Assembly (NCBI RefSeq): GCF_900114325.1
Contig: NZ_FOSR01000008.1
Location: 1-64,000, forward strand
Source: Rhodanobacter glycinis
GTDB taxonomy: Bacteria; Pseudomonadota; Gammaproteobacteria; Xanthomonadales; Rhodanobacteraceae
Direction: 5' to 3'
DNA length: 64,000 bases
Shown here: positions 22,813-47,352 of the stretch, one piece after another
Layout: each line of letters starts with the position of its first letter
Numbering within the stretch: the stretch's first letter is position 1
Translations under genes and position numbers: made by a program
The notes under the pieces: model-generated
The model's input: only the letters and a program-made list of their open reading frames with translations
Told to the model about the DNA's origin: nothing
Databases searched by the model: none

Positions 22813-24963
22813 ATGAAAATGATGACGCGAATGGCGGCAACTTGTGCGGCAATGCTTTTTGCCAGTCAGTTGTCGGCGACGGAAGTTGCCAGGCTTGCGG
22901 CGCCGGATGCCTCGGCGCGCATCGTGCTGCAGCAAGTGCAGCGCACGGGGCACACGGAAACGGCTGCCGATGGTGTTATCCAGCAGCGTTACGAGTTTCA
23001 GCCTGCCGCGCAGCCGCAGATTGTCATCCAGCCGGCTCAGGGTGCGTGGAACTGGAGCGGGCAGGGTGAGCTGCATTTGCGCGTGCAGGATGCGATGGCC
23101 TGGGCGGTGACGCTGGATGTGGATATCGACAGCGGCGCCGGCAAGCATCTGCACGCCACGCTGGGCGTGTTGCCGGGGCCGGCGCAGACGCTGGTGTTGC
23201 CGCTGCGCGCCATGTCGTCGCGCGCTTTCGGCATGCAGGTAGGTCCGCCGATGCCGTTCAACGATCATGGTCGGCCGGTGTTGCTGGCGACCACGGTGCA
23301 GGGCGATATCGACCTGCAGGCAGTGCATGCGATCCGCCTCGGCATGCCGGCGCCAAAGGCCGCGCAGACCTTGCTGCTGGGGAACATCGAGGTGGAAGTG
23401 GGGGATGCCACGTCGCGCAATGCCTACACCGGCATCGTCGATCGCTACGGACAATATACGCGCGAGAACTGGCCGGAAAAGGTCGACAGCGATGCCGCCT
23501 TGCGTGCAGCCCATGCACGCGAGCGGGCGACGCTGAAGACGGAGCTGGCCGAAGCGAAAGGACTCGATGCGTACGGCGGCCGCATGGACGTCCCTTTGCG
23601 CAAGACCGGCTGGTTCCACACGCAGAAGCAGGATGGCCGCTGGTGGCTGGTGACGCCGGACGGCCACGGCTTCTTCTCGCTGGGCGTGAATGCGATAGCC
23701 GCCAGCCAGGACCCCACCTATGTGCAGGGCCGCGAGTTCATGTTCCGTGACCTGCCGCCGGACAGCGGTGCATGGGCGGCGTTCTGGGGCACGGGTGACG
23801 ATCGCCGTCCCGATGCGGGTGCCGGTGCCGGCATCGGTTACGACCACGGTCGCTGGTTCGATTTCTATCAGGCCAACCTGTATCGCGTCGATGGCAAGGG
23901 CTGGCTGGCCGCGTGGCGCTCACGCACGCTGGATCGCCTCAAGGCCTGGGGCTTCAACACCATCGGCAACTGGAGCGATCCCGCGCTGGGCCAGGCACAT
24001 CGCCTGCCGTACACGCGCTCGATCGATATCCGCGGCGACTTCGCCAATGTCTCATCCGGCTACGACTACTGGGGGCGCATGCCCGATCCGTTCGATCCCC
24101 GTTTCGTGCAAGCGGTGAAGGTGGCCGTGGCGAAGGCGAGTGCAGACGTGCGCAATGATCCGTGGTTGCTCGGCTACTTTGCCGACAACGAACTGGCCTG
24201 GGCCGGTATCGGGCCGCAGGGGCGCTGGGGGCTGGCCACCGGCACGCTGCGCGGTGACGCACGCAGTCCGGCCAAGCAGGCCTTCATCGCAGTGCTGAAG
24301 AAGAAATACGGCACACCGCAAAAGCTGGCCGCCGCCTGGGGCATGGCATTGGCCTCGTGGAACGCGCTAGAGACCACCGGCTTCGCCGCGCCGGCGCCGA
24401 ACGAGGCGCACCCGGCCATCACCGCTGATTACGAGGCGTGGCTGCGTAACTATGCCGACACTTATTTCCGCACTGTCGCCGCGGCGATCCATCGGGACGA
24501 CCCGCACCATCTGTTCCTCGGTGGTCGTTTCGCGGTGCGCACGCCCGAGGCCGTGGCGTCCTGTGCGCAGTATTGCGACGTGGTCAGTTTCAACACCTAC
24601 ACCGACATGCCGCAACATGGTTTCGATGCCGCCACCATGCACAAACTCGACAAGCCAGTGCTGATCTCCGAGTTCCACTTCGGCTCGAATGACCGCGGTC
24701 CGTTCGGCAAAGGCGTGGCCTCGGTATGGAACGAGTCCGAGCGCGGCCCGGCCTATGCGCGCTTCGTGCAGGCCGCGGCGAGTGATCCGGATATCGTGGG
24801 CACGCACTGGTTCGATTACACCGACCAACCCGTCACCGGTCGCCTGCTCGATGGCGAAAACTCACACATCGGCCTGGTCGGCATCACCGATATTCCGTTT
24901 GCGGGTTTCGTGAAGGCGGTGCGCGAAGTGAACGAGCAATTACGGTCGGAGCAGGCTAAGTAA
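22813..24963 (+). CDS. GH50-family glycoside hydrolase (agarase-like)
   Basis: A 716-residue protein with a signal peptide (CAAMLFASQLSATE), an N-terminal beta-sandwich of about 200 residues, and a TIM-barrel. The segment after 255 (PLRKTGWFHTQKQDGRWWLVTPDGHGFFSLGVN), the acid/base Glu460 in GYFADNELAW, the nucleophile Glu620 in LISEFHFGS, and the end THWFDYTDQPVTGRLLDGEN fit GH50. Known GH50 enzymes are beta-agarases acting on beta-1,4-galactosyl bonds. No 3,6-anhydrogalactose genes are present here, and the neighbours are galactan/arabinan enzymes, so agar itself may not be the substrate. Its 3' end overlaps the convergent MFS gene by 8 bp. Confidence 0.8.
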   Translation: MKMMTRMAATCAAMLFASQLSATEVARLAAPDASARIVLQQVQRTGHTETAADGVIQQRYEFQPAAQPQIVIQPAQGAWNWSGQGELHLRVQDAMAWAVTLDVDIDSGAGKHLHATLGVLPGPAQTLVLPLRAMSSRAFGMQVGPPMPFNDHGRPVLLATTVQGDIDLQAVHAIRLGMPAPKAAQTLLLGNIEVEVGDATSRNAYTGIVDRYGQYTRENWPEKVDSDAALRAAHARERATLKTELAEAKGLDAYGGRMDVPLRKTGWFHTQKQDGRWWLVTPDGHGFFSLGVNAIAASQDPTYVQGREFMFRDLPPDSGAWAAFWGTGDDRRPDAGAGAGIGYDHGRWFDFYQANLYRVDGKGWLAAWRSRTLDRLKAWGFNTIGNWSDPALGQAHRLPYTRSIDIRGDFANVSSGYDYWGRMPDPFDPRFVQAVKVAVAKASADVRNDPWLLGYFADNELAWAGIGPQGRWGLATGTLRGDARSPAKQAFIAVLKKKYGTPQKLAAAWGMALASWNALETTGFAAPAPNEAHPAITADYEAWLRNYADTYFRTVAAAIHRDDPHHLFLGGRFAVRTPEAVASCAQYCDVVSFNTYTDMPQHGFDAATMHKLDKPVLISEFHFGSNDRGPFGKGVASVWNESERGPAYARFVQAAASDPDIVGTHWFDYTDQPVTGRLLDGENSHIGLVGITDIPFAGFVKAVREVNEQLRSEQAK

Positions 24964-26113
24964 GTGGGGCCGGCACACGGGATCGATGGCGCCGCGCAAA
25001 CGCCAGCGCCAGCAGCAACGCCGCGAGGGTGGCGAGGCCGGCCAATTCCAGCGGTGCGGCAAAGCCGTGCCGGTGCGATGCCAGGGTGGCGGCCACCAAC
25101 GGGCCGATGATCTGGCCGATGCCGAAGGCTGCCGTCAGTGCACCGATCAGCCGGGTGGGGTCGCGTGGTGCCAGTACGGCGGCTTCGCGCATGGTGAACA
25201 TCACCACCGGCGTGAGCGCGGCACCTTCCAGCACCGCACCCAGTGCCAGCCCGGTGGGCGTTGGCCAGTACAGGCAGGCCAGCGTGCCCAGCAGCATCGA
25301 GAAACAGCAACCGGCCAGTCCCACGTAATTGCTGCGCACGGTGGGCAGCACGCCCAGCAACAGGGTCGCCAGTACCGTGGCCACGCCGTACAGCGGCCAG
25401 AACCACTCGCGCAACGCAGGCAGGTGCAGTTGCGCGTCGGCAATCAGCGGCAGGAACGTCGCCGGAATCACATAGGCAAAGCCGAACAGGCCGTAGATGG
25501 CCACCAGCGGCCAGGTCGGGCCGCTTTCATGCCGCACATGGGATGCCGCCGGCGTTTGGCCGGGAGCGGCCAGCGTGCGCCAGGTCAATACGGTTACCAC
25601 GGCACACAATGCGCCGGAGAGCAGCCACCAGCGTGCGGAATCCAGTCCGCCACCGTGCAGGGCGGCGACCAGGGTGCCGCTGACCACGATGCCGATGCCG
25701 GGGCCGCTGTACAGCAGTGATTCCAGCCCGATGCGGCCATGCGTGCGCAGGTGCGCCGTGCACCAGGCAATGCCATGCACCATCAGCATGGCGGCCGCCA
25801 CGCCGGCCACGAAACGACACAGCAGCCACAACGCCAGTGACGGCGCCAAGCCCATGCCCAGCGTGCCCAGGGTCACCAGCAACATGCCAAGGCGCAGGGT
25901 GGTGCGTTGCGGCAGCGCCAGCGCCGCGCACAGCAAGGCGCCCAGCAGGTAGCCGATGTTATTGACCGAGGCCAGCCAGCCACCACCGATCAGGCTCAGT
26001 CCCGCATCGGCCTGCATCAACGGCAACAAGGGCGTGAGCATGAAGCGGCCGATGCCCAGCGCAATGGCCAATACGGTCATGCCGACGACGGCGAGACGGA
26101 CGGGGGATCGCAT
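24956..26113 (-). CDS. YbfB/YjiJ-type MFS transporter
   Basis: A 385-residue, 12-helix major-facilitator protein. The N terminus (GIGRFMLTPLLPLMQADAGLSLIGGGWLASVNNIGYLLGA) is characteristic of the YbfB/YjiJ family of presumed exporters; substrates are unknown. It is divergent from a LysR-type regulator (96 bp between starts), the usual arrangement for a regulated exporter. It does not obviously belong to the sugar locus around it. Confidence 0.82.
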   Translation of the reverse strand: MRSPVRLAVVGMTVLAIALGIGRFMLTPLLPLMQADAGLSLIGGGWLASVNNIGYLLGALLCAALALPQRTTLRLGMLLVTLGTLGMGLAPSLALWLLCRFVAGVAAAMLMVHGIAWCTAHLRTHGRIGLESLLYSGPGIGIVVSGTLVAALHGGGLDSARWWLLSGALCAVVTVLTWRTLAAPGQTPAASHVRHESGPTWPLVAIYGLFGFAYVIPATFLPLIADAQLHLPALREWFWPLYGVATVLATLLLGVLPTVRSNYVGLAGCCFSMLLGTLACLYWPTPTGLALGAVLEGAALTPVVMFTMREAAVLAPRDPTRLIGALTAAFGIGQIIGPLVAATLASHRHGFAAPLELAGLATLAALLLALAFARRHRSRVPAPLT

Positions 26114-26209
26114 GATGCGCTTCCGGCGATGGGGATGCGGCCATGCTAAGTCAGGCGTACCATCGTATATAGCGAATAATTACGAACATCATCATCGGAA
26201 AAATCGATC

Positions 26210-27118: not shown

Positions 27119-27197
27119 CCATGGCGGCTCTCCCCGTGGCTCGCTTCGCGCCTACGCTTGGAGCCTGTAAAAAACATCCTTTCGCCGAAAGCCCACG

Positions 27198-27268: not shown

Positions 27269-27291
27269 ACGATTACTGCGGAAGCCGGATT

Positions 27292-28792: not shown

Positions 28793-31651
28793 TTATCGAA
28801 TCGCAGTGACATCAACCGGCGATGTGTACGAGCCGTAATCGATGAGCGAGACGGTGCCGAGGCCACCCGGTGAACTGTCAGTCTTCCATACGGCAATGGT
28901 GATGTCGTTCTTCCCGTGCGGATCGATGATGCCGTCGGGAATCGGGAAGCGATGCTGCGGGCCGAGATCGGCGATGTAGTTGCCCATCTGCCAGCCGTTG
29001 ACGAAGATCATCGCGCGATAGTGCCGACCCGGCGGATCGGTGATCTCCAGTCCCAGCGACGTGTCCTGGCCCTTGGGCAGGGCTAGCGAAACGTTGCTGC
29101 GATACCACGTCACACCGGGCTGTGCGGTGTTGGCCGGCAAGACTGCGGGGTGCCAGTCGGCAGGCTTGCCGGGCTTGATCGGCCACTCGTGGCGCTCGCC
29201 ATACAGACCGCCGAAATTGTATGGACCGCGTTGCGGGTTTTCGTCGGTGATCGCCCCTTGCAGGCGCCAGGTGACCGCCTTGGCATCGGCGCCGATCGGC
29301 TCGGCCGAGACGATGCCTCGCGCCGTACGGTTCTCGCCGGTGGAGTCGTAGTCTTCCTCGTGCCCCATGTCGACGGTCAGTACCGAGACGACGTTGTCGC
29401 CCGGCACAAGCATGGCGGCGGGGAAGCTGAAGGCGCCGATTTCGCTGCGCGTCACGCTGCCAAGGAAATGGCCGTTGAGCCATGCCGAGAAGGCGCCGCC
29501 CTTGCCGCCGCTGACCACCTTGAGCTTGAGGCCGGAGGGGGCGGCGTGGTGGGCGTCGACGGTGAAGTGGCCGCGATACCAGGTGTTGCCGGTATGGAAG
29601 CCATAGTCATCGGCAAACAGCACCGGTAGCGTGCCCGGCTTGGTGACGCTGCTGGTGGTGGTGAGGTTGGCGACGCGCCATTGGGCATCGTTGAAGTTGC
29701 GGGCAATCTCCGGGGCGCCGGCGCGACGCGTCCAGTGATCGAGCTTTGGCAGCGTGATCGGTTGCGGCACCGGCAGGGTCACGGCCAGGCTCCCCGAAGC
29801 GGTGTGCGTGGCGGCGAGCGGCCGGCCATTCCAGGTGAGTCTGGATGCGTCGCCGGCGAACACTTCCGCACGGGCATCGCTGTCGCCATCACCGGTCAAG
29901 GCCAGGGTGCCATCGTCGTACTTCGCGCTGCGCAACAGGTGCGAACCGATCATCAATACCGAACCCTTGGGGGTGTCTTGTCGCCAGACGCGCTGCGTGG
30001 CCTGGTCATCGCCGATCAGCAGCAACAGCGGCCGCTGGCCACCGTCGATCAGCACGCGCGCCAGACCGTCATGCCGGTAGTCTAGCCGCAGCCCGTGCTT
30101 GCCCCAGTGCTGACTCACCGTACCGGACAACACCGTGACCTTCGGTTGGGCGGCAAAGCCGAGCAGTGTCTCGCCATCGCTGCCATGGCGGCCGTAAAGC
30201 ACGGCGATGTCGCGATTGCCGACCGTCGCGTCGGTCATCAGTTCGGATGTCGAATAAACCAGCCGTGTCGCACCGAGCATGTAGTCGGCCAGCAGCAACT
30301 TGCTCTCGCGACCATCGATGGTGATCGCGGTGCCGGCTTGTTGCGGCACGGTGAACGAGCCTTCCTTCAACGACAGTGTCAGATGCGCCGCTTCGACCGT
30401 CGATGCGGTGGTGTCGCCGTGGCGAACAAGATGGAATTGCGTGCCGGTGTCCGGATTGATCCGCGCCCGATCGACGACACGCGGATTGTCGACCCGGCCC
30501 GCCGCCAACGCGTTGGTCTTGGTGATGGGCGTGACGGCGTGAAGGAAATAGCCGATCCGCTTGTCCTCGTAGTACTTGGGATCGAACTGGCGTCCCTCGG
30601 TGATCGCCGCACCGTAATCGTAGGAAGTGTAGTTCTGCGGGATCGCCTGCCAGCCCCACGAGGTGCCGCCGAACAGCATGTAGAAGTTCTGCGCCGTCGC
30701 CCCCGCCGCGATGTTTTCCTTGTAGAACACGTTGGCGAAGCGGTCGTTGATCAGCTGCGCGCACTTGGCGTAGCCGGGGCCGCCCCAGGGGTCGAACGCA
30801 CCGCCCTGGAACTCGGCGGTGAACAGCGGCTCGCCGGCGAAGCGATGCGCGGCCATGTCCGGCGCCGGTTTCCATTGCGACGGATGCGAGCAGTCGAAGC
30901 CCTGCGGGTAATAGTCCCAGCCGCTGACATCGACCGCGCCTTTGCCGCTGACGAAGGTCGCGTTGTGGTTGCCGACCAGTGGCACGGTGATGCCGTCGGC
31001 GCGTGCCTTGTTCTCCAGGTGCTGCATGTATTCGCGACCCGCGGGCGAGCCGTTGTAGTACTCGTTTTCCACTTGATAGGCGATCACGGTGCCACGGCCG
31101 TCGGTGAGCTGATGCCGGGCCAGGATGCGGTCGATCTGCGTCATCCACTGGTCGGCAAGCTTGAGATAGGCAGGGTCCGGACTGCGATTCTTGACCGGCT
31201 TGTCGGTCAGCCACAACGGGAATCCGCCGCTGTCGACTTCGGCGTTGATGTAGGGGCCGGGACGCGCGATCACGTAGATGCCGGCATCGCGCGCGTCATC
31301 CAGCAGCTTGTCGAGATTGCGCACGCCGCTGAAGTCGTACTGGCCTTCGCGCGGCGAGTGATATCCCCAGGAAAAGTAGATCGATGCGGTGTTGAATCCC
31401 GCCGCCTTCATCTTCTGGAAGATGTCCGGCCACAATTCAGGGCTCGGCAGGCGATAGGGATGGACTTCGCCCGACCAGAGATAGGTGCGCTTGCCGTCGA
31501 TCAGGAAACTGTATTTGTCGAAGCTGACGCGGTGGGCCGTCGGCGTGGGTGCGGGAGCCGTGGCTTCGCCGCTCGTGCGGGCTGATCCGGCGGCTGCGAG
31601 TGCGAGGCTGCTTGCGACCAACCCTGCCTTGATCCATTGACGATGCTTCAT
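28793..31651 (-). CDS. secreted GH35 beta-galactosidase, multidomain
   Basis: 952 residues with a signal peptide (LVASSLALAAAGSART). The TIM-barrel starts RVSFDKYSFLIDGKRTYLWSGEVHPYRLP. The acid/base Glu197 lies in AYQVENEYYNG and the nucleophile Glu280 in LFTAEFQGGAFDPWGG. The long beta-domain tail (about 400-952, including two jelly-roll-like modules with WYRGHFTVD and WYRSNVSL) is like the large fungal-type GH35 enzymes rather than short bacterial ones. It should release terminal beta-galactose from galactan side chains. It is divergent from the epimerase gene across a 211-bp regulatory region. A GAGGAGGG ribosome site supports the start. Confidence 0.9.
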   Translation of the reverse strand: MKHRQWIKAGLVASSLALAAAGSARTSGEATAPAPTPTAHRVSFDKYSFLIDGKRTYLWSGEVHPYRLPSPELWPDIFQKMKAAGFNTASIYFSWGYHSPREGQYDFSGVRNLDKLLDDARDAGIYVIARPGPYINAEVDSGGFPLWLTDKPVKNRSPDPAYLKLADQWMTQIDRILARHQLTDGRGTVIAYQVENEYYNGSPAGREYMQHLENKARADGITVPLVGNHNATFVSGKGAVDVSGWDYYPQGFDCSHPSQWKPAPDMAAHRFAGEPLFTAEFQGGAFDPWGGPGYAKCAQLINDRFANVFYKENIAAGATAQNFYMLFGGTSWGWQAIPQNYTSYDYGAAITEGRQFDPKYYEDKRIGYFLHAVTPITKTNALAAGRVDNPRVVDRARINPDTGTQFHLVRHGDTTASTVEAAHLTLSLKEGSFTVPQQAGTAITIDGRESKLLLADYMLGATRLVYSTSELMTDATVGNRDIAVLYGRHGSDGETLLGFAAQPKVTVLSGTVSQHWGKHGLRLDYRHDGLARVLIDGGQRPLLLLIGDDQATQRVWRQDTPKGSVLMIGSHLLRSAKYDDGTLALTGDGDSDARAEVFAGDASRLTWNGRPLAATHTASGSLAVTLPVPQPITLPKLDHWTRRAGAPEIARNFNDAQWRVANLTTTSSVTKPGTLPVLFADDYGFHTGNTWYRGHFTVDAHHAAPSGLKLKVVSGGKGGAFSAWLNGHFLGSVTRSEIGAFSFPAAMLVPGDNVVSVLTVDMGHEEDYDSTGENRTARGIVSAEPIGADAKAVTWRLQGAITDENPQRGPYNFGGLYGERHEWPIKPGKPADWHPAVLPANTAQPGVTWYRSNVSLALPKGQDTSLGLEITDPPGRHYRAMIFVNGWQMGNYIADLGPQHRFPIPDGIIDPHGKNDITIAVWKTDSSPGGLGTVSLIDYGSYTSPVDVTAIR

Positions 31652-31781: not shown

Positions 31782-31810
31782 TTGACACTTGTCAATTGTC
31801 ATATTATATG
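31782..31810. promoter_or_regulatory. candidate operator/promoter between GH35 and epimerase genes
   Basis: A perfect dyad TTGACA-CT-TGTCAA (31782-31795) is followed by TTGTCATATTA, one mismatch from the TNGTNNNACNA pattern of FadR-type regulators, and a TATTAT/TTATAT minus-10-like run. It lies 53-81 bp before the epimerase ATG. Confidence 0.45.
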
Positions 31811-34269: not shown

Positions 34270-34618
34270 AGGTCTTCTGACAGGCGGTGATTCAAAGCCG
34301 CCACTGCACCGGTCATTGACCACGAAAACGCCCGGCATGCCGGGCGTTTTCACGTGTGCGTGATACGCAAATTCGAGGCGCTGCGCTGCAGCATGACAAG
34401 CGAGTGCAACTGATGCATTGTTGGTCATATAGTACGACAAATGCAAAATTGTCAGACTATTTGAAATTCCGTCGAATCGGGCTTTTCGGTGCGACGGGCG
34501 TGCTTTTGAGGAGCGTGCCAACGGGCTGTCGAGCCGGTATGGGCGAAAGGCACCGAAGAGCGAAGGCAATGCTCTACCCGATCATCACGACATACAGAAA
34601 AGTTCTGGGGAGAATTTC
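34270..34618 (+). promoter_or_regulatory. 349-bp gap: terminator and receptor promoter
   Basis: No gene is seen. It holds the terminator at 34325-34350 and an AT-rich regulatory block at 34421-34453. TAGTACGACAA (34430-34440) fits TNGTNNNACNA, and GACAA/TTGTC (34436-34453) form a spaced dyad. Both lie about 170-200 bp before the receptor start. Confidence 0.45.
34325..34350 (+). terminator. Rho-independent terminator after GH5-like gene
   Basis: AAAACGCCCGG-CATG-CCGGGCGTTTT, an 11-bp perfect stem ending in T residues, 56 bp after the stop. Confidence 0.92.
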
Positions 34619-37643: not shown

Positions 37644-39233
37644 ATGCTTTCGCGCATTACCTTGTCTTCCTTTGTCATGGCATGTTCAGCGCTGGCATAT
37701 ATGTGCCCGAGCGCAGCGCGGACGCCAGATCAAGCCGGTGGCACTTACCTGGCGCAAGGCGTGGGTTATCCCGCGCTGGTTCGACTTGCCCACCAGACTG
37801 ATCCGTCGGCCAATGGCCGGGTGCTGCTGGTGTTCGAACGTGATGGCATGGACGGGATACCGTTGTACGTGCGATCTCCCGGTAGCCAGGACTGGCATTT
37901 CTCGGAGAACGTGACCGATCAGGCGCATCACGGAGATGCCAGCTGGCAATTGCGCTGGCAGCCCAATATCACCGAGCTGTCACGTGCCAGTGGATCACTG
38001 CCGGCCGGAACGGTTTTGCTGGCCGCCAATGCCACCGGCAATGATGCGAAGGGCAGGGTGGTGGCTGAAGACCTGCAGCTCTACACCTCCAGTGACGGCG
38101 GTCACAGCTGGCATTACCGCAGCTCGATCATCAAGGGTGGTGGCAAGCCGTCGGAGAAGGACAACCACGGTGTGTGGGAGCCGAACATGCGCGTGCTTGA
38201 CGATGGCCGCATGGTTGCCTATTACTCCAGTGAGCAGCACAAGGCCGAAGGCTTCAATCAGTTGCTGGCGCACAAGGTCTCGCGCGATGGCGGACTCACG
38301 TGGGGCGCGGAACATGTCGACGTGGCGATTCCCGGTGGTGTCGAGCGCCCCGGCATGGCCGTGGTCGACCGCCTGCCCGACGGCCGTTACGTCATGAGTT
38401 ACGAGGACATCGACGGACCGCAGAACGGCCATGTGTACCTGAAGTTCAGCCGGGATGGACTGGATTGGGGCGATGCTGCCATGCGGGGCACACCGGTGCA
38501 GACGGAAGCTGGCGCTTGGCCGGCCGCGTCACCTATCGTGAAATGGCTGCCCGTGGGTGGGCACGACGGCGTGATCGTGGTACTGGCGGAGCGTGCCGGT
38601 GGCGGCGGCGATCCCGGCGGTCGCTCGATGTACTGGAACAACGATCTTGGTCGCGGCCCGTGGTGGGAAGCGCCGGCACCGGTGCAGAAGCAGACCGGCA
38701 ACATCCATGCCGGCTGGACCCAGGCATTGCTGTTGCAGAAGAACGGAACGCTGTTGCACATCACTTCGTCGTCCACGGACAAAGCGCCGGCTGATTTGCG
38801 TGGTAATGTCATCCTTTATGCCGCCGCCACGGAACGCTTCGACCGTTATGAGGCGGAAGATGCTGCACGCCATTGGGCCGTGCAGATCGGCGATTCCACC
38901 GCATCCAATCAACAGAAGGCACGCGTAGCCGCATGGCCGCAGGGGCGTCTCGATTTTTCCGTGCATGTCGCTACGTCAGGGTCAAAGTCGCTGCGTGTGC
39001 GTTGGCAGGATCTCGGCTTCACCACGAAGCCGCTGGTGCGTATCGATGGGCACGCCATCGCCGGCGGCGACGACAGGAATGATCGCGACGGTTGGCACGT
39101 GACCACGTTCCATACGACGCTGCAGTCCGGCGACCACACCATCACGTTGGGCGGCGAAGGACACGCGCTGGATATCGACTATTTGCAGATTGACCGTTCG
39201 GGTGCAGTTGCCGAGAGTGGGCCCAACGCCTGA
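37644..39233 (+). CDS. secreted sialidase-fold glycosidase, GH93-like, with C-terminal CBM
   Basis: A 529-residue protein with a signal peptide. Residues about 35-390 are a beta-propeller with Asp-box-like repeats (SSDGGHSWHYRSS, VSRDGGLTWGAEH, FSRDGLDWGDA) and a WEPNMRVLDDGRMVAYYSSE motif, as in GH93 exo-alpha-1,5-arabinanases. The C-terminal 120 residues start RYEAEDAARHW and resemble a CBM35/CBM6-type sugar-binding module. GH93 releases arabinobiose from arabinan; other sialidase-fold families cannot be excluded by eye. A CAGGAG ribosome site precedes the ATG. Confidence 0.72.
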   Translation: MLSRITLSSFVMACSALAYMCPSAARTPDQAGGTYLAQGVGYPALVRLAHQTDPSANGRVLLVFERDGMDGIPLYVRSPGSQDWHFSENVTDQAHHGDASWQLRWQPNITELSRASGSLPAGTVLLAANATGNDAKGRVVAEDLQLYTSSDGGHSWHYRSSIIKGGGKPSEKDNHGVWEPNMRVLDDGRMVAYYSSEQHKAEGFNQLLAHKVSRDGGLTWGAEHVDVAIPGGVERPGMAVVDRLPDGRYVMSYEDIDGPQNGHVYLKFSRDGLDWGDAAMRGTPVQTEAGAWPAASPIVKWLPVGGHDGVIVVLAERAGGGGDPGGRSMYWNNDLGRGPWWEAPAPVQKQTGNIHAGWTQALLLQKNGTLLHITSSSTDKAPADLRGNVILYAAATERFDRYEAEDAARHWAVQIGDSTASNQQKARVAAWPQGRLDFSVHVATSGSKSLRVRWQDLGFTTKPLVRIDGHAIAGGDDRNDRDGWHVTTFHTTLQSGDHTITLGGEGHALDIDYLQIDRSGAVAESGPNA

Positions 39234-39395: not shown

Positions 39396-40472
39396 TCACG
39401 GCTTGGCCGTCTGCCCCGAGGGTACCGCCAGCGGCACGCCCGCTTTCACCGGTACGCCGAAGTCGGGCGTGCCGTCGGCGCGCCAGTGCACTTGCTGCAT
39501 GCGTGGCGAACGACGCGGGCCGCACTTCCAGTTTGGTCCACCGTTGGCGTGGTAGATGATCCAGGTCTGCTTGCCGTCGGGCGATTTGAAGAAGCCGTTG
39601 TGGCCGGGTGCGTAGACACCGTTCGCGGGTGACTCGGCGAATACCGGCTGCGGCGATTTGTGCCACGAGGCGGGATCGAGCGGGTCGGCATCCGCCGCAG
39701 CACTGAGCAGGCCCAGCGCATAGTGATCGGACCAGCAGGCGCTGGCCGAATAGCTGAGGAACAACTTGCCGGTCGGTCCCTTGAGGAACTCCGGTCCTTC
39801 GAGAATCTTGCGTCCGCCCTGCATCTCCCACGCATACGTGGGGTGGGCAATGTCGACCTGTGGCGCGGCCAGCGTCCACGGATTGCTCATCGGGGCGATG
39901 ACCAGATCGCTGTGGTCACCCACATAGGCGGAATAGACGAAGTACAACTTGCCGCGCAGTTGGAACACGGTGCCGTCGATGCCGTTGTAGCCGGTCTTCA
40001 GCGCACCGCGCGAAATCCAGTGCCCCGTGGTTGGATCGGGCGAGGCGTTTTCCAGTACGTACAGATGGCGATGGGCGTCGTCGTCGTGCGCCTTGTCGGC
40101 GGCGGTGAAGTACAGGTACCACTTGCCATCGAGGAAGTGCAGCTCCGCCGCCCATACCGACGCCGAACCCGGCCCGCTGGCCGGGGCGCGCCAGACCACG
40201 GTGACGGGCGCCTGTGCCAGGCGCCCCATGTCGCGTGTCTTCCACAAGGCGATGCGGTCGCCCAGCGTGTTGGTGTAGTAGTAGGTGCCGTCATGTTGCG
40301 CCACCCACGGGTCGGGTCCCGAGGGCAGCAACGGGTTGGTGAAGGTCTCGCCGGCGCGGACGTGGCCGGGTGCCGCGCCCAGCGCAGCAAGCAACACGGC
40401 AACCAGCGCGACCCGCCGGTGCTTCCATGCACCGTTGTGCGTGTGGGTCACGGCAGGCGGCAACATGCCCAT
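39396..40472 (-). CDS. secreted GH43 enzyme, exo-arabinanase-like
   Basis: 358 residues. After a signal-type segment (RRVALVAVLLAALGAAPGHVRA) comes a five-bladed propeller typical of GH43: base Asp in LPSGPDPWVAQHDGTYYYTNT, the middle acidic residue in NGIDGTVFQLRGKLYFVYSAY, and the acid Glu in RKILEGPEFLKGPTGK. The pattern is closest to subfamily 26, known for exo-alpha-1,5-L-arabinofuranosidases. It starts 4 bp after the sugar transporter stop and is the last gene of the galactonate operon. The exact start is uncertain because the N terminus before the signal is long. Confidence 0.82.
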   Translation of the reverse strand: MGMLPPAVTHTHNGAWKHRRVALVAVLLAALGAAPGHVRAGETFTNPLLPSGPDPWVAQHDGTYYYTNTLGDRIALWKTRDMGRLAQAPVTVVWRAPASGPGSASVWAAELHFLDGKWYLYFTAADKAHDDDAHRHLYVLENASPDPTTGHWISRGALKTGYNGIDGTVFQLRGKLYFVYSAYVGDHSDLVIAPMSNPWTLAAPQVDIAHPTYAWEMQGGRKILEGPEFLKGPTGKLFLSYSASACWSDHYALGLLSAAADADPLDPASWHKSPQPVFAESPANGVYAPGHNGFFKSPDGKQTWIIYHANGGPNWKCGPRRSPRMQQVHWRADGTPDFGVPVKAGVPLAVPSGQTAKP

Positions 40473-40476
40473 CGGT

Positions 40477-41865
40477 TTACTGCCCGATCCGGCGCAGCGG
40501 CTTGCCGGCCATCAGGTTGCGCTCGATGTGCTCCAGCGAGATGTTCTTGGTTTCCGGCACCAGCCAGAAGGTGAGCAGGATGAACACGGCGTTGAACGCG
40601 GCGTAGAGCCAGAAGGTGCCGGCGTCGCCGATGCCGTTGAGCAGGCTGAGGAAGGTGCCGCCCACGATCATGTTGGCCACCCAGTTGGTGATGGTGGAGC
40701 AGCCGATGCCGAAATCGCGGCCCTTCAATGGCTGGATTTCCGAACATACGGTCCAGATCAGCGGGCCGGCGGACATCGCGAAGCCGATGATGAAGATCAG
40801 CAACATGCCGACGGTGAACAATTGCTCGGCGTGGGTGTGGATGCCCAGATGCATCATGGTGCCGACGATGCCCAAGCCGATGGTCATCACCACGAAGCCC
40901 GCATACAGGATCGGTTTGCGACCGAGCTTGTCGACGAAGGCAATTGCAATGAAGGTGGCCAGCACGTTGGTCAGGCCCACGATGGCGGTGAACCACAATT
41001 GCGATTCGGTGTTGTAGCCCATGCCCTGGAAAATGCGCGGCGCGTAGTACATCACCACGTTCATGCCGGTGAGCTGCTGCATCACCTGCAGCACGATGCC
41101 CAGGCCGACCGAACGACGGAAATTGCGGTTCTGGAAGAACAGGTGGAAGCCACGCTGCGGCACCTTCAGCTGTTCGGTGATCTCGGCCAGCTCCAGCGCG
41201 ACGGCGTCCTTGTCGGCGCGCAGCTTGTGCAGCACGCGTTCGGCCTCTTCGTGCTGGCCGCGCATCATCAACCAGCGCGGGCTGCACGGCAGGAACACCA
41301 CGCCGAACAGGAACAGCACGCCGGGAATGGCGATGACGCCCAGCATCCAGCGCCAGTTGCCGGTGTAGCTGAAGGCGGTGTCGGACAGGAATGCCACCAG
41401 GATGCCGATGGTGATCATCAACTGGTACAGCGAGATCATCGCGCCGCGGATTTTTTCCGGCGCGATCTCGGCCAGGTACAGCGGCGCGGTGAAACTGGCG
41501 ATGCCGATGGCCACGCCAAGAACGATCCGGCCCACGATGAGGATGGCGGGTGAGCCGGCCGTGCCGCACAGAATCGAGCCGATCACGAACAACACCGCAC
41601 CGATGATCAGCGAGCGCTTGCGTCCCAATGCCGACGACATCCAGGCTGCGCCCAGCGCACCCAGCGCCGCGCCGGCCATCATGCTGCTGACCACCCACTC
41701 GATGGTGTGATCGCTGATGGCAAAGTCTTTCTGGATGAATTGCTGTGCGCCGGAAATGACGCCGACATCCAGGCCGAACATGAGTCCGGCCAGGGCGGCG
41801 AGTATGCAGGTGAAAACGGCAGTAGCTTTCGAGTGGGTGGCAGCGGGCGGTGCGGTGGCGTTCAT
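40477..41865 (-). CDS. sugar:proton symporter, GalP/AraE-like MFS
   Basis: A 462-residue, 12-helix sugar porter. Motifs are [14 protein letters not shown] in helix 1, GRKRSL in loop 2-3, [16 protein letters not shown], the helix 7 [14 protein letters not shown] signature, DKLGRKP, and [12 protein letters not shown] at the end. GalP and AraE of E. coli share this pattern. Within a galactonate operon it should bring D-galactose (and possibly L-arabinose) into the cytoplasm. A 132-bp gap separates it from the lactonase gene upstream, and GH43 follows after 4 bp. Confidence 0.88.
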
Positions 41866-41997: not shown

Positions 41998-42912
41998 TCA
42001 CGGAGTGCCGCCCACTGGCGGCCTGCCGGCAAAACGAGGTTCAGGCAAGCCGCGCGCGTCGATGCGTGCGGCGAACAATGCGCCGGCCAGCGGATCGGCG
42101 GCCAGTTCCGTGGCGTCGAGCCCGTCGCGCGCGCTGGTGACATAGAGTGTATCGAGCGCCGCACCGCCGAGGGCCGGTCGCGTGGGTTGGCGCGCTGGTA
42201 CCGGGATCACGCGATCCTCGCGGCCGTCGGGGTGGTAACGCACCACGCGGCCCATGCCCCATTGTGCGTTCCACAGACCGCCGTCGGCATCGACGCAGGA
42301 GCCGTCCGGCTCGCCGCTGATGCCGCGCAGGTCGACGAAGTTGCGCGATGGGCCGAGGGTGTCGCCGTACTCGCAGCAACGGATGATGCGCGTGGGCGAA
42401 TCGCAGTAGTACAGGGTGCCACCGTCGGGACTGAAGGCGAGGCTGTTGCTGATCGCCACGCTTTCCAGCGGCAGGCGTTGCAGCGAGAGATCGCCATCGA
42501 GTCGCCAGAAACCGCCGATGGCCTGCTTCGGCCCGCCGCCGGCGGGTTCGTGCAGGGTGCCGAACACGAAGCGACCCTGGCGATCGCAGGCGCCGTCGTT
42601 GCAGCGCGTCGGCAGCTTGGGCTCGACTTCGCACACGGTGTGCAGGGCGCCGTCGGCGAGGCGAAAGAAAGCCAGTCGCGAAGCCAGTGCCAGCAGCAGC
42701 CAGCCATCGGCTTCGCACAACGCGAATGAGGCGAGGCGTTCGGGCAAGACCCAATGCTGCGTTTCGCCGCTGGCCGGTGCGTGGCGCCACAGCGTGCCGG
42801 CCTGGATATCGGTCCAGTACAACGCCTGCGCCCGGTCGCACCAGACGATGCCCTCGCCCAGCACATTGCCCGCTTCCAGTACGGTCTGCATGGGAGCGGG
42901 CGACGAATTCAT
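41998..42912 (-). CDS. SMP-30/gluconolactonase-family sugar lactonase
   Basis: A 304-residue, six-bladed propeller that hydrolyses aldonolactones with one divalent metal. Likely ligands are the Glu in NVLGEGIVWCD, the Asn in TRCNDGACDRQGRF, the Asn in ISNSLAFSPDG and the Asp in EPDGSCVDADGG. It opens the galactono- (or arabinono-) lactone produced by the dehydrogenase. The ATG at 42912 overlaps the stop of the SDR gene (ATGA), which fixes the start and shows coupling; the frame continues upstream without homology. Confidence 0.88.
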   Translation of the reverse strand: MNSSPAPMQTVLEAGNVLGEGIVWCDRAQALYWTDIQAGTLWRHAPASGETQHWVLPERLASFALCEADGWLLLALASRLAFFRLADGALHTVCEVEPKLPTRCNDGACDRQGRFVFGTLHEPAGGGPKQAIGGFWRLDGDLSLQRLPLESVAISNSLAFSPDGGTLYYCDSPTRIIRCCEYGDTLGPSRNFVDLRGISGEPDGSCVDADGGLWNAQWGMGRVVRYHPDGREDRVIPVPARQPTRPALGGAALDTLYVTSARDGLDATELAADPLAGALFAARIDARGLPEPRFAGRPPVGGTP

Positions 42913-43679
42913 ACCCAGCCGCCGTCGACGATGAAATCCTGGCCGGTGCACATGCGGCTGTCGTCGGCGCCGAGGAATAGCGCCATTCGCGCCAGATCGT
43001 CGGCCATCAGATAGCCGGGCATGCATTGCACGCGCGCGATCTCGGCTTCGCCTTCGGCGTCCAGCCACAGCGTGCGCTGTTTTTCGGTGATCACCCAGCC
43101 GGGCACCAGTGCGTTGATGCGGATGCGTTGCTGGCCGAGCTCGCGGGCCATGCCGTTGACGAAGCCGTGGATCGCAGCCTTGGCCATCGCGTACAGCGGG
43201 TAGCCGGCGTTCTTCTTCATCCAGCCGGTGGAGCCGAGGCAGATGATCGACCCGCCGCCGAGTCCGTGCATGTCCGGAATCACCGCCTGCGTGGCGAAGA
43301 TCTGGTGGCGCAGGTTCACCGCCACGTTGCGCTCGAACGCGGCGGCATCGATGTCATCCAGCCCGTGGCGGGCGTCGTTGGCGGCATTGTTGACCAGCAC
43401 TGCGATCGGACCGATCTGCTTGCGCGCTGCGTCGATGGCGCGTTGCAGTGCCGCCAGGTCGGTCACGTCGCAAGGCAGGAAGTGCGGGGCGTGCGTCACG
43501 TCCTCCAGCGTGGCGAGCAGCGCCTGCGCGCCGGCTTCGTCGCGGTCGAGAAAAGCGACCTTCGCGCCTTGCCGCGCAAAGTGTTCGACGAAGGCCGCGC
43601 CGATGCCGGTGGCGCCGCCGCTGATCAATACGCTGCGGTCGCGCAGGCTGGGGTAGCTGGCGTACATGGCACTCACCAT
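42909..43679 (-). CDS. SDR aldose 1-dehydrogenase (galactose/arabinose dehydrogenase-like)
   Basis: A 256-residue short-chain dehydrogenase. The cofactor loop is [16 protein letters not shown] with Asp in FLDRD (NAD preference), the NNAAN motif is [12 protein letters not shown], the catalytic Ser lies in [10 protein letters not shown], and YxxxK is [10 protein letters not shown]. In this operon it should oxidise D-galactose (or L-arabinose) to the 1,4- or 1,5-lactone. The ATG at 43679 overlaps the dgoD stop by 7 bp; an ATG at 43667 is possible. Sugar specificity cannot be read from sequence. Confidence 0.85.
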
Positions 43680-44821
43680 TCGGCCACGCTGCCGTCGTCA
43701 TGCCGCCAGATCGGGTTGTGCCACTGGTGGCCGACCTTGGCACGTTCGGCCACGTAGGCTTCGTTCACCTCGATGCCCAGGCCGGGGCCGGTCGGCATGC
43801 TCACGTAGCCATCGGCATAGGCGAACACGCCGCGATCGGTCACGTAGTCGAGCAGGTCGTTGGTGGCGTTGTAGTGGATGCCCAGGCTTTGTTCCTGGAT
43901 GAACGCGTTGTGGCATACCGCGTCCAACTGCAGGTTCGCCGCCAGCGCGATCGGGCCGAGCGGACAGTGCAACGCCAGCGCCACGTCGTAGGCTTCGGCC
44001 ATCGCGGCGATCTTGCGCGTCTCGGTGATGCCGCCGGCGTGCGAGGGGTCGGGCTGGATGATGTCCACGCCACCGGTCTGCAGCACGCGCTTGAAGTCGT
44101 AGCGCGAGTACAGGCGCTCACCCAGCGCGATCGGCGCGGGCGAGATTGCGGCCAGTTCGGGCAGGCATTCCAGGTGTTCGGACAGCACCGGCTCCTCGAT
44201 GAACATCAGCTTGTACGGCAGCAGTTCGCGCATCAGCACCTTGGCCATCGGTTTGTGCACGCGGCCGTGGAAATCCAGGCCGATGCCGATGTCCGCGCCC
44301 ACCGCATCGCGGATCGCCTGCACGTTCTCCAGCACCCGCTCGACCTTGGCGTGCGTGTCGACGTACTGCATCTCCTCGGTGGCGTTCATCTTTACTGCGG
44401 TGAAGCCGCGCGCCACGGCATCCTTCGCCGCGCGGGCGGTGTCGGCCGGGCGGTCGCCGCCTACCCACGAGTACACACGGATGCGATCGCGCACCGGACC
44501 GCCGAGCAGTTCATAGACCGGCCGGCCCACGTCCTTGCCCTTGATGTCCCACAGCGCCTGGTCGATGCCGGCAATGGCACTCATCAGGATCGGGCCGCCG
44601 CGATAGAAGCCGCCGCGATAGAGCACGTTCCAGTGATCCTCGATATGTCGCGGGTCCTTGCCGACCAGGTAGGTCGACAACTCCTCGACGGCCGCGGCGA
44701 CGGTCTGCGCGCGCCCCTCGACGACCGGCTCGCCCCAGCCGCTGATGCCGGCATCGGTATCGATGCGCAGGAACAGCCAGCGCGGCGGAACGAGGAAGGT
44801 GGTGATGGCGGTGATCTTCAT
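43673..44821 (-). CDS. dgoD: D-galactonate dehydratase, enolase superfamily
   Basis: 382 residues; converts D-galactonate to 2-keto-3-deoxy-D-galactonate. Metal ligands Asp183, Glu209 and Glu235 (GLDFHGR, MFIEEP, LGERLY) and the catalytic His185 and His285 ([10 protein letters not shown]) fall at the numbers known for E. coli DgoD, and the overall sequence is DgoD-like. This distinguishes it from glucarate, arabinonate or rhamnonate dehydratases of the same superfamily. Its ATG overlaps the dgoA stop by 4 bp. Confidence 0.95.
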
Positions 44822-45447
44822 GCGTGCGTACTCAGCGAGTGCCAGGCCTGCGCGAAGGCGCGGGCGCGGGAAGCGGTGTCGTCCAGGCTGCGGCCGTGTG
44901 CGTACAGTGCCGAGCCGATACCGAAGCCGGCGGCGCCGGCGGCCACCCACGGGCCCATGTTGTCGGGCGTGATGCCGCCGACCGGCAGCACCGGCACGTC
45001 GCGTGGCAGCACGGCGCGCCAGGCCTTGAGCACGGCTGGAGCGGCCTGTTCGGCCGGGAACAGCTTCAGCCCGTCGGCGCCGGCGGCCAGCGCGGCAAAG
45101 GCTTCGGTGGGCGTGGCCACGCCCGGCACGCAGAGCAGGCCGGCGGCCTTGGCGGCGCGGATCACCGCGGTGTCGGCGTGCGGCATCACGATCAGGCGAC
45201 CACCGACGGCGGCGATGGCTTCGACGTCGGCCGTGCTCATCACGGTGCCGGCGCCGACCAGCACGTCGTCGCCGAGTGCTTCGGCGAGCTGGGCAATGCT
45301 GTCCAGCGGCCGCGGGGAATTGAGCGGCACTTCCAGTACGCGAAAGCCGGCGTCGACGAGGGCATGGCCGACGGGCGTTGCTTCGTCGGGTGTCAATCCA
45401 CGCAGGATCGCCACCAGCGGCAGCGGCGTGAGCCAGGGGGTCAGCAT
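44818..45447 (-). CDS. dgoA: 2-dehydro-3-deoxy-6-phosphogalactonate aldolase
   Basis: A 209-residue class I aldolase of the KDPG family that splits KDPGal into pyruvate and glyceraldehyde 3-phosphate. The Schiff-base Lys128 is in [11 protein letters not shown], the general-base Glu39 in VLEVPLNSP, and phosphate binding is in [27 protein letters not shown] is the usual DgoA start. It overlaps dgoK by 7 bp upstream and dgoD by 4 bp downstream. The small size means it is not fused to DgoD, unlike some enterobacterial annotations. Confidence 0.94.
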
Positions 45448-46373
45448 GATGCAATGTCCTTGGGGGCCTGATGAACCAGGCCGGCGTGCAGGGCGAGCTG
45501 CCACAACCCGTGGGCGGCGGCATCTTCCAGCGGTGGGTCCAGTTCGATATCGAAATGCGTGGCGGCGCGACGGTAGCGTTCGCAGAGCGCCACGTCGCCG
45601 ATCAATTGCAGTGGCGTGTCGCGGTGGGCGAGGCCATCGGCCAGCGCGGCACGAAACTCTTCGCCGACCAGCAGGCCGGACAGATAGTCGGGCACGCTTT
45701 CCGACGCCAGCGTGCCGTCGAGCATCAGCGTGCGGGCGGAGAACAATCGGCTCAGCGCGCCGGCGGCGCCGCTGTCGCGTGCCGTCACCACGCCACGCGC
45801 GAAAGCGTCCGGGTTTGCCGTGGCCGAAATGGTTCCGGTGCCGAGGATGGAATGCTGCTGCAGCAGCGCGAACAGCTCGCCGGTCATCAGGGTGCGAAAA
45901 CCGGTGACCTTGCCGTCGCGCACCGTGACCCACTTGCTGTGCGTGCCGGGCAGGATCCAGCTGGATGTGCCGGCGAGCGCCGGACGCAATGACAGGGCGC
46001 CAACCAGTTGGGCCTCCTCGCCACGCATCACGTCCGGCCCGTGCGGATCGCGCAGACCGGGAGCGATATGGACGTCCATACCGTCGGCAGCCATCAGTCG
46101 ACCCAGGGCGTGGCCGATCTCCGCCGCGCCGGCGGGCAGGTCGAGATAAGGCATTTCGCGCCAGCCATTGCGACTGCCGACCATGCCGCAGGCCAGCCTC
46201 GGCAACACGGGCCAGCCCTTGGTGACGGCGGAGAGCGCCGCATCGAAGCCACCCTCCGGCAAGTGACGCAGGCCCCATGGGCGGTGGCGGGTTTCCTCGA
46301 TGTGCCCCGCGCCATCAAGACGGTAGGCGCGGAGGCTTGAAGTACCCCAGTCGAGTCCGATCAGGCCGTTCAT
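45441..46373 (-). CDS. dgoK: 2-dehydro-3-deoxygalactonokinase
   Basis: A 310-residue ASKHA-type kinase that phosphorylates 2-keto-3-deoxygalactonate at C6. Motifs are the N-terminal phosphate loop [36 protein letters not shown], and the DgoK signature [11 protein letters not shown] with [16 protein letters not shown]. The first gene after the regulator, it starts 13 bp downstream of it. Confidence 0.94.
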
Positions 46374-46386
46374 GCGCAGATTCTTC

Positions 46387-47094
46387 TCAAGCCTTCTTCG
46401 AATGGCGGCGAATGTTGCTGCGCGAATCGCTCACCATCTTGACCATGGCCTGACGCGCCACTTCCGGCTGGCGCCGGCGGATCGCATCGAGCACTTTCTT
46501 GTGGTGCGGCAGCGAGTACTTGAAGTTGCTGGCGGTGCGCGCCGACAGCACGAAGTAGGTGCCCAGCGCGGTTTCGACCACCGAGAACAGCGAGACCATC
46601 AGCTCGTTGTTGGTGGCGTGCAGCATCGCTTCGTGAAAGGCCAGGTCGGCCTCGGTCCATGCATCCAGGTTGGCCGAAGCGGCCATCGCTTCGTAGGCAG
46701 TGGCGAGGGTCTCCAGTTGTTCGGCGGTGCGGCGGCGTGCGGCGGCGGCGGCGGCGGCCGGCTCGATGATCTCGCGCATTTCCACCAGTTTCTCGACGAA
46801 ATCCTCGGTAGGCATCGAGGCGCAGCGCCAAGCCAGCACGTCGGCATCGAGCTGGTTCCAGTGGATGGTGTCACGCACGCGGGTGCCGGTTTTCTGGCGC
46901 GACTCGATCAGCCCCTTCGCCGACAGCACCTTCATCGCCTCGCGCAGCGCGGTGCGACTCACGTTCATGCGCTCGGCCAGCAATTCCTCGCGTGGCAGAC
47001 CCTCGCCGGGTGCCAGTTCGCCGCTGACGATCAAGCGACCCAGCTCGTGGATCACCTGATTGTGCAGGCTGCGCACGGCCATGGGTTTCACCAT
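46387..47094 (-). CDS. GntR-family regulator, FadR subfamily (DgoR-like)
   Basis: 235 residues. A winged helix (ELGRLIVSGELAPGEGLPREELLAERMNVSRTALREAMKVLSAKGLIESRQKTGTRVRD) is followed by an all-helical FCD effector domain with metal/effector residues in DLAFHEAMLHATNN and LPHHKKVLDAI. As first gene of the galactonate operon it is probably its repressor, relieved by galactonate or a related intermediate as in E. coli DgoR. I chose the ATG at 47094 (MVKPMAVRS), which has an AGGAGAG ribosome site 9 bp upstream. A matching operator lies about 100 bp before it. Confidence 0.9.
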   Translation of the reverse strand: MVKPMAVRSLHNQVIHELGRLIVSGELAPGEGLPREELLAERMNVSRTALREAMKVLSAKGLIESRQKTGTRVRDTIHWNQLDADVLAWRCASMPTEDFVEKLVEMREIIEPAAAAAAARRRTAEQLETLATAYEAMAASANLDAWTEADLAFHEAMLHATNNELMVSLFSVVETALGTYFVLSARTASNFKYSLPHHKKVLDAIRRRQPEVARQAMVKMVSDSRSNIRRHSKKA

Positions 47095-47194
47095 TGTTGC
47101 TCTCCTTGGAAGGTGCCGGGCGTGCCACGATTCCGGGCCGCCTTGTTGCCTGTCGAAGGGCGGGGAAGCCAAAGCCCCGGCCCGCCCTTATTAT

Positions 47195-47205
47195 TTGTAC
47201 TACAT
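47195..47205. promoter_or_regulatory. candidate operator of the GntR/FadR-type regulator
   Basis: TTGTACTACAT is a near-perfect dyad (TTGTA-C-TACAT) fitting the TNGTNNNACNA consensus of the FadR subfamily at 10 of 11 positions. It sits about 100 bp upstream of gntR in an AT-rich block, consistent with autoregulation of the whole operon. Confidence 0.6.
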
Positions 47206-47352
47206 AATTACCTTATAGCAGGTCACTTGGGAAGCGTCATCTGTTCGAAGCCGCTGATCTGCTGCATCAAGGACGTATCCCGGCCCGGCGTCGTGCCGGG
47301 TGGACGTGCGCGGGAGTTCGCCCAGGATCCTCCTGCAAGGATTGCGATCGGG

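Follow-up and report, generated by a model that had tools for sequence, protein, structure and literature searches.

A probable galactose-centred polymer-utilization regulon built around a dgo operon in Rhodanobacter glycinis

Introduction

Several described systems share parts with the locus reported here, which lies in Rhodanobacter glycinis within a 64,000-nucleotide stretch of DNA (hereafter the window, with which the 190.8-kb contig C26 of the 3.87-Mb genome begins) and joins genes for glycan enzymes and a TonB-dependent receptor to a dgo operon for galactose catabolism. The dgo operon of Escherichia coli likewise carries at its head DgoR, a repressor of the FadR subfamily, and converts galactonate into pyruvate and glyceraldehyde-3-phosphate (PMC7674646, accessible part). 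In the De Ley-Doudoroff loci reconstructed in Halomonas and Rhodobacteriaceae, as far as they are described in the accessible part of PMC5507952, the dehydratase, DgoK and DgoA are located together with a transporter and with a regulator from either the DgoR or the IclR family, as is the case here, and Halomonas possesses an SMP-30-type lactonase, DgoL, like the SMP-30 protein of the present locus. The carrageenan polysaccharide utilization locus (PUL) of Zobellia also unites polymer breakdown with a 2-keto-3-deoxygalactonate (KDGal) kinase and aldolase in a single regulon (PMC5698469, accessible part).

The R. glycinis locus is probably a galactose-centred polymer-utilization regulon that leaves arabinose unused. 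In the carbohydrate utilization systems with TonB receptors (CUT systems) of Xanthomonadales, as in this locus, the receptor is accompanied by glycosidases that are exported and by a porter of the inner membrane; those known to us serve sucrose, xylan or N-glycans, and we know of none with this gene set. A literature search, which reached few subscription journals, found no published account of it among the papers listed, and the family names were not found in the text of PMC7278926.

Results

Gene content of the unit

The unit occupies about 28.8-47.2 kb of the window and is smaller than the region (22813-47220) proposed by an initial annotation. It comprises genes for a glycoside hydrolase of family 35 (GH35), GalM, GHA (the name used here for a clan-A glycosidase without assigned family), the TonB-dependent receptor and a GH93-type enzyme, and then the dgo operon in the order GntR-dgoK-dgoA-dgoD-SDR-SMP30-porter-GH43, where SDR stands for a short-chain dehydrogenase/reductase. 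The features are listed below, together with the GH50 gene outside the unit.

28793..31651, minus strand: GH35 beta-galactosidase of 952 amino acids; Pfam PF01301 295 bits plus BetaGal_dom2/dom3; exported as judged by eye
31792..31810, minus strand: operator-like site in the 211-bp GH35/GalM divergent promoter; score 16.0, top site of the window
31863..33014, plus strand: GalM-type aldose 1-epimerase, exported as judged by eye; Pfam 303 bits
33106..34269, plus strand: GHA clan-A glycosidase; Pfam Cellulase 19.9 bits, under the 23.5 cut-off; no Pfam or NCBIfam cut-off reached
34426-34444, plus strand, and 34445-34463, minus strand: two operator-like sites 5' of the receptor gene; scores 12.5 and 13.7
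34619..37429, plus strand: TonB-dependent receptor, Xanthomonas/Caulobacter type; TIGR01782 616 bits vs cut-off 310
37644..39233, plus strand: GH93-type exo-arabinanase-like enzyme; PDB exo-arabinanase 3a71, E 5.6e-32; Pfam BNR_2 under cut-off
39396..40472, minus strand: GH43 enzyme, encoded at the end of the dgo operon; Pfam 195 bits; PDB 9nxj 7.8e-73, 3akf 7.4e-72
40477..41865, minus strand: sugar porter of the major facilitator superfamily (MFS); 432 bits; TIGR00879 427 bits vs 238
41998..42912, minus strand: SMP-30 type sugar lactonase; Pfam SGL 242 bits; no NCBIfam match
42909..43667, minus strand: putative SDR sugar 1-dehydrogenase; best NCBIfam model D-xylose 1-dehydrogenase XylB, 297.5 bits, under the 400 cut-off
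43673..44821, minus strand: DgoD galactonate dehydratase; NF010624/PRK14017 687 bits vs 311; start codon chosen by script
44818..45447 (start at 45447 or 45456), minus strand: DgoA 2-keto-3-deoxy-6-phosphogalactonate aldolase; NF006600/PRK09140 299 bits vs 207
45441..46373, minus strand: DgoK 2-keto-3-deoxygalactonokinase; Pfam PF05035 292 bits vs 25
46387..47094, minus strand: GntR/FCD regulator (FadR-subfamily, DgoR-like); Pfam GntR 67 and FCD 91 bits; below every listed NCBIfam cut-off
47191..47209, minus strand: operator-like site 5' of the GntR-dgo operon; score 11.8, fourth best in the window
22813-24963: GH50 beta-agarase-like gene, outside the unit; PDB 5z6p, E 1.1e-100

All the genes named in the initial annotation are present with the type of function stated there, as judged from Pfam, NCBIfam and PDB matches. 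The annotation had counted six exported glycan enzymes; the six genes stand, and their export is a prediction from N-termini judged by eye. It had overlooked the GntR/FCD regulator gene (46387-47094) at the head of the dgo operon.

The dgo operon is tight and lies on the minus strand, the successive gaps from GntR onward being 13 bp, an overlap, an overlap, 5, -4, 132 and 4 bp. The last gene, GH43, has no operator-like site of its own and starts 4 bp past the stop codon of the porter gene, and should therefore be read with the dgo operon. The dehydratase DgoD, the kinase DgoK and the aldolase DgoA of the De Ley-Doudoroff pathway are encoded together, all scoring above their cut-offs. The SMP-30 protein, with zero NCBIfam matches, belongs to the right superfamily for a galactonolactonase and may act as one; the SDR protein is also of the right superfamily for the predicted dehydrogenase, but falls below each cut-off among the best 25 of 231 NCBIfam models. 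Since galactokinase (GalK) was found in none of 40 genomes (34 GHA carriers and six genomes of the same genus), the dgo route is probably the route for galactose.

The receptor, the glycosidases (export by eye), the inner-membrane transporter and a dedicated regulator are thus adjacent, as in a TonB-receptor carbohydrate locus, and are kept in relatives. The proposal of a system leading from galactose uptake to central metabolism is supported: it adjoins the predicted exported glycan enzymes, shares operator-like sites with them and is kept in part of the family.

Conservation in the family and beyond

A total of 147 genomes of the same family were searched for GH50, DgoK, GHA, GH93 and GH35. 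GHA was identified in 34 genomes. DgoK is also encoded in 33 of them, at a distance of at most 25 kb from GHA in 30, as against 39 of the 113 that lack GHA; the odds ratio for its presence is 63 (p 1.1e-11, with kinship left uncorrected). In the three carriers with DgoK not near GHA, the DgoK operon is located near a contig end (G127 and G134) or apart from GHA (G011). Between GalM and GntR, the genes are clustered beyond chance, but this is not true of GH50 (see below). GH93 was found near GHA in 29 of the 34 carriers, including three distant copies (31-38%; G054, G095 and G032). The usual order is GalM-GHA-receptor-GH93-GH43, divergent from GntR-DgoK-DgoA-DgoD-SDR-SMP30-porter; in Rhodanobacter GH43 is placed after the porter instead. 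GalM is present in 23 of 24 GHA loci of Rhodanobacteraceae and Lysobacter. The alignments of unit proteins may include one organism twice, owing to overlapping records.

At least 556 GHA relatives were confirmed among at least 589 candidate stretches in an alignment scan of a database of 84,980 species, indicating that GHA represents a widespread group of clan-A glycosidases without a family. The best 80 relatives were kept, and 25 loci outside Rhodanobacteraceae and Lysobacter were picked by hand (23 of Proteobacteria and two of Acidobacteriota). These 25 loci include genes for the receptor (20 loci), GalM (18), GntR (16), an SSS transporter (14), an IlvD/EDD dehydratase (13), GH43 (13), a Gfo/Idh dehydrogenase (12), DgoK (7) and DgoA (6). 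In Sphingomonadales and Steroidobacterales, GHA, GalM and the receptor recur beside the Gfo/Idh-type dehydrogenase, the IlvD/EDD dehydratase and the SSS transporter, which resembles a variant of the same route in which oxidation is carried out by non-orthologous enzymes; the IlvD/EDD enzymes of these outside loci may also serve arabonate. Three Sphingomonas loci (L136, L148 and L162) carry arabinan-type sets of GH43 genes, one of them of the endo-arabinanase type, and L136 has in addition an arabinofuranosidase gene. GHA is accompanied by galactose catabolism in some loci and by arabinan enzymes in others, which fits a polymer of two sugars, or a sugar resembling both.

A further 23 loci, each 10 kb or longer and most of them from Acidobacteriota, have hardly any such neighbours near GHA; GHA loci of Acidobacteriota (L125, L129, L130, L135, L137, L144 and others) are often near genes for proteins of about 1,000-1,200 amino acids. 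A second GntR gene followed by three others beside GH93 in Dyella was considered as a separate arabinose operon and rejected. In one Dyella relative (L086:12231-14861), the three genes after the module form no sugar pathway: one codes for a regulator of the AraC family, one for a DUF2063 protein and one for an enzyme of the MbnB/TglH/ChrH type, which belongs to the formation of ribosomally synthesized and post-translationally modified peptides (RiPPs); the other Dyella loci were judged by eye.

Operator-like sites

The motif TTGTATGACAA is common to upstream regions of the unit and fits the FadR-subfamily consensus TKGT-N3-ACMA, the 3-nt spacing of which is named for DgoR in the accessible part of PMC4494728. 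After palindrome enumeration and a search with a loose pattern, a matrix was constructed with 45 sites from 52 regions upstream of GntR or GalM, none of them from Rhodanobacter. The four best matrix sites of the window are at 31792 (16.0), 34445 (13.7), 34426 (12.5) and 47191 (11.8), and the best score outside the unit promoters is 5.7. Among held-out Rhodanobacter upstream regions, scores above 8 were obtained for GntR (11/11, this one included), GalM (6/7), the receptor (4/5) and GH35 (1/4), and for none of those of GH50 (0/9), permease (0/9), GHA (0/5), GH93 (0/3), GH43 (0/4), DgoD (0/11) and porter (0/10). With a first matrix, partly trained on the window's own sites and applied to all loci, receptor sites were detected in 9 of 24 loci, indicating that control of the receptor is not universal. 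A genome-wide search with a pattern made from the window's own sites gave two exact matches, both here by construction. The GntR regulator is a candidate for the protein that recognizes these sites in response to an effector, and the set of receptor, glycosidases, porter and regulator is, to judge from the operator-like sites, a candidate for co-induction by the substrate.

GH50 and GH35

The GH50 protein is homologous to the GH50 beta-agarases, and E460 and E620, which we take to be its catalytic residues, are conserved in 22 sequences. Its gene is present in 66 of the 147 genomes and stands beside an amino-acid permease gene in all 20 of the neighbourhoods examined, drawn from these 66 genomes. 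Within the 34 GHA carriers, GH50 is located at most 25 kb from GHA in five, elsewhere or on another contig in 21, and is absent in eight. GH50 upstream regions over the operator threshold were none of 21 with the first matrix, as with the held-out set. Membership of GH50 in the unit, as first proposed, is rejected on account of this distribution, its neighbours and the lack of operator-like sites; GH50 is a bystander.

Three further genes between GH50 and GH35 had been passed over, coding for an MFS_4 transporter (24956-26113), a LysR regulator (26210-27118) and a Y-family DNA polymerase (27292-28641). A different Y-family polymerase gene lies about 11 kb away in the window (15612-16790), and a close copy (80-84%) of the one at 27292-28641 was observed in six of the 20 fetched GH50 neighbourhoods.

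A close copy of GH35 (85-86%) was detected in only three other genomes of the 147, all of the same genus, with DgoK but without GHA, so that among the 34 GHA carriers the R. glycinis genome alone has a GH35 of this close kind at the module. Three other carriers (G011, G033 and G034) have a GH35 of 50-53% identity on other contigs or far off, and in G115 (L085) the same operon is adjoined by a second receptor gene, an alpha-galactosidase gene (Pfam Melibiase_2, 261 bits) and a gene distantly similar to GH35 (31%). The R. glycinis genome has a second GH35 gene, 53% identical, on another contig (G000:C14:287982-290876). The argument from two beta-galactan-type enzymes is reduced to GH35. The unit is galactose-centred, and GH35 is a local addition to it.

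Enzymes of the polymer-degrading set

In the GHA protein, E194 (in WNEP) and E294 are invariant in an alignment of 65 sequences; two glutamates are expected in clan A as acid/base and nucleophile. A search of PDB with the single GHA sequence gave no match, and a profile search gave weak matches with GH5 and GH10 first (a GH5 mannanase at 6.8e-07 over part of the chain). An AlphaFold model from the 65 sequences reached a mean predicted local distance difference test (pLDDT) of 90.4 and replaced one from 14 sequences (pLDDT 65). The ten top PDB matches of this model by Foldseek are all of GH5 type (query template-modelling score 0.52-0.58, 14-20% identity), other clan-A families ranking lower; the Pfam score (19.9 vs 23.5 bits) does not place GHA in GH5. 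As judged from sequence and model, GHA is predicted to be a clan-A enzyme, remotely GH5-like and without family assignment.

The GH93-type protein is homologous to GH93, its E179 and E254, aligned with the glutamates of 3a71, being conserved in 40 aligned sequences. The catalytic residues are E170, E242 and Y337 according to a legend of PMC11813348; the equivalence of E170/E242 with E179/E254 is drawn from the alignment. In the GH43 protein, the DPW, IDGT and LEGPE stretches line up with 9nxj, and 3akf is a solved GH43 enzyme named arabinofuranosidase. D166 and E225 are conserved in 46 sequences, and D54 is not among the positions conserved above 98%; these positions we take to be those of the Asp-Asp-Glu triad. 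No Pfam match to GH53, GH16 or GH30 was obtained among the proteins of the unit. GH43 is placed at the family level, and GH35, a potential beta-galactanase, accompanies GHA at this similarity in R. glycinis alone. Arabinogalactan is a possible substrate of the unit.

Other genes were observed in the modules of relatives. A protein of about 350 amino acids, barely above the Pfam GH43 cut-off (L117:15006-16037, 38.6 vs 32.2 bits) and with weak PDB matches, adjoins GHA in seven of the 25 outside loci (L117, L118, L120, L143, L158, L164 and L168). GDSL-type esterase genes lie within the module at L062:8467-9765 and L143:11180-12370 (Pfam) and, by eye, in L051, L056, L064 and L088, hinting at an acylated polymer. 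In one Rhodanobacter relative, GHA is separated from the receptor gene by one for a sulfatase (L057:3180-4877; Pfam 143 bits).

Fate of L-arabinose

Arabinose isomerase AraA was found in none of the 40 genomes, nor was L-ribulokinase above the cut-off (the best match in R. glycinis was 57 bits vs 583, and the weaker matches were taken as other kinases). An IlvD/EDD enzyme of the PRK13017 type, as expected of an arabonate dehydratase, exceeded the cut-off in eight of the 40 genomes (six of the 34 GHA carriers) and not in R. glycinis, where the two matches, at 328 and 236 bits, were interpreted as IlvD and Edd. R. glycinis has two genes of the dihydrodipicolinate synthase (DHDPS) family, the higher-scoring one presumably being DapA. 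None of the L-arabinose routes sought was found in this genome, and arabinose, if released, is therefore probably not the food. The second DHDPS-family gene (L171, G000:C27:62000-77162) is next to a gene resembling that of 4-hydroxyproline epimerase (430 bits against a cut-off of 442), with genes for an aldehyde dehydrogenase, FAD enzymes and an Xaa-Pro peptidase-like protein, which suggests a cluster for hydroxyproline catabolism.

Growth phenotypes were available from published descriptions, each accessible in part. Five Rhodanobacter type strains, including R. thiooxydans LCS2, are negative for L-arabinose assimilation (PMC11596576); LCS2 (L111) carries the unit from SMP30 to GH43, on a contig that stops before the porter. 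Two Dyella type strains and a clinical isolate form no acid from L-arabinose or D-galactose (PMC2828071), and D. thailandensis does not use L-arabinose (PMC12789092).

Discussion

Proposed mechanism

The computed gene content, the conservation of the unit, the common operator-like sites and the lack of the L-arabinose and Leloir genes sought are read here as a galactose-centred regulon; the cellular locations, the substrate and the enzyme that frees galactose we infer. The DgoR-like regulator of the GntR/FadR type would govern three promoters and be released probably by D-galactonate. The TonB receptor would bring oligosaccharides into the periplasm, where GHA, GH43 and the GH93-type enzyme, joined in this species by GH35, may trim them and free D-galactose. 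A periplasmic mutarotase (GalM) would equilibrate the galactose, the sugar porter would import it, and SDR, SMP-30, DgoD, DgoK and DgoA would convert it by the De Ley-Doudoroff route into pyruvate and glyceraldehyde-3-phosphate. The substrate is most likely a polymer of plants in which galactose occurs together with 1,5-linked arabinose (pectic or type I arabinogalactan), from which arabinose would be stripped and left unconsumed.

A number of observations weigh against this proposal. The best scores in 100 shuffled windows had a mean of 9.7, a 95% level of 13.1 and a maximum of 17.2, so that two of the four sites, and in a strict sense all of them, convince only when their position is taken into account. 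The motif from which the matrix was seeded came from a set that included Rhodanobacter, and the limit of 8 was chosen after the scores were known; with up to two mismatches, the genome-wide pattern gave four matches, three of them here, and the reversed control also gave four. The glycan and dgo halves can be separated, since no DgoK was found in G033, a carrier of the glycan half, and since in G011 each half is on a contig of its own. For the SDR, the nearest model is that of a D-xylose 1-dehydrogenase, whose cut-off it does not reach, so that galactose is a presumed substrate of this enzyme. D. japonica DSM 16301 (L098), presumably the type strain tested for acid, carries the unit. The D. 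japonica type strain forms no acid from D-galactose (PMC2828071, accessible part), and such a test may fail to reveal oxidative use.

Alternative substrates

GH43, the GH93-like enzyme and GHA might instead act on polymers of D-galactofuranose, such as the beta-1,5/1,6-galactofuranans of fungi, lichens or bacteria, a proposal that we regard as rather unlikely. The ring stereochemistry of beta-D-galactofuranose matches that of alpha-L-arabinofuranose, and galactose would be the sole product, which would explain why galactose catabolism alone accompanies these enzymes. GHA, GH93, GH43 and galactose catabolism are indeed the usual partners, with no beta-galactanase family among the constant genes (the unmatched genes of relatives were scanned in part); the L-arabinose genes sought are missing in R. 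glycinis, and one carrier strain does not use L-arabinose. Exo-galactofuranosidases have been published in GH5_13 (GlfH1) and GH43_31 (PMC10115798, accessible part), and GHA is remotely GH5-like, but the assignment of GHA stops at clan A, short of GH5_13, and that of GH43 at the family, short of GH43_31. The solved GH93 relatives found are arabinan-active, and one solved GH43 relative is named arabinofuranosidase. In addition, GHA occurs in Sphingomonas Leaf34 (L136) with GH43 and an alpha-L-arabinofuranosidase gene (Pfam Alpha-L-AF_C, 179 bits), and in L148 with an endo-arabinanase-type GH43 (AbnA model 285 bits, under the 480 cut-off) in an arabinan-like set. The fuller version, a galactofuranan-utilization regulon with GHA as a new clan-A galactofuranosidase family and with GH93 and GH43 types shifted from L-arabinofuranose to D-galactofuranose, appears slightly less probable again. 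If true, galactofuranose from fungi, lichens or bacteria would be a food of soil bacteria, and the De Ley-Doudoroff pathway would receive all of the sugar set free.

It is improbable that L-arabinose is oxidized too by the same SDR, SMP-30 and DgoD and enters metabolism via the dgo operon. An arabinan-type GH43 is within the same operon, and arabinose and galactose have the same C2-C4 configuration, but DgoK and DgoA would be expected to make glycolaldehyde phosphate from a pentose. R. glycinis lacks a PRK13017-type dehydratase above the cut-off, its second DHDPS gene is in a hydroxyproline-like setting, and the L-arabinose-negative Rhodanobacter type strains include one known carrier (PMC11596576, accessible part). 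A system for agar or agarose, as GH50 would suggest, is very improbable and was rejected on the same grounds as the membership of GH50. The homology of GH50 to beta-agarases speaks for it, as do the KDGal kinase and aldolase genes of the Zobellia carrageenan PUL (PMC5698469, accessible part), but in 29 of 34 carriers GH50 is either missing or not near GHA, and it is linked to a permease and is devoid of operator-like sites, and DgoD is above the cut-off of galactonate dehydratase.

The galactose-centred regulon acting on a plant polymer would give common soil bacteria a complete route by which a polymer reaches central metabolism, and candidates for its regulator and operator are at hand. Its individual parts are ordinary; the puzzle is that enzymes of arabinan families are tied to galactose catabolism in genomes where the known arabinose genes sought are missing.

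Comparison with described systems

In the loci of Halomonas and Rhodobacteriaceae the glycosidase named is a cytoplasmic alpha-galactosidase (PMC5507952, accessible part), whereas here the TonB receptor and GH93, GH43, GHA and GH35 are included in the locus under an apparently common operator. The Zobellia PUL differs in having an anhydrogalactose dehydrogenase and cycloisomerase, GH127-type and other enzymes, and a regulator of the AraC family (PMC5698469, accessible part). The E. coli dgo operon, as far as described in the accessible part of PMC7674646, serves galactonate, whereas in R. glycinis galactose would be oxidized first, by SDR and SMP-30, and the predicted regulon extends to outer-membrane uptake and glycosidases.

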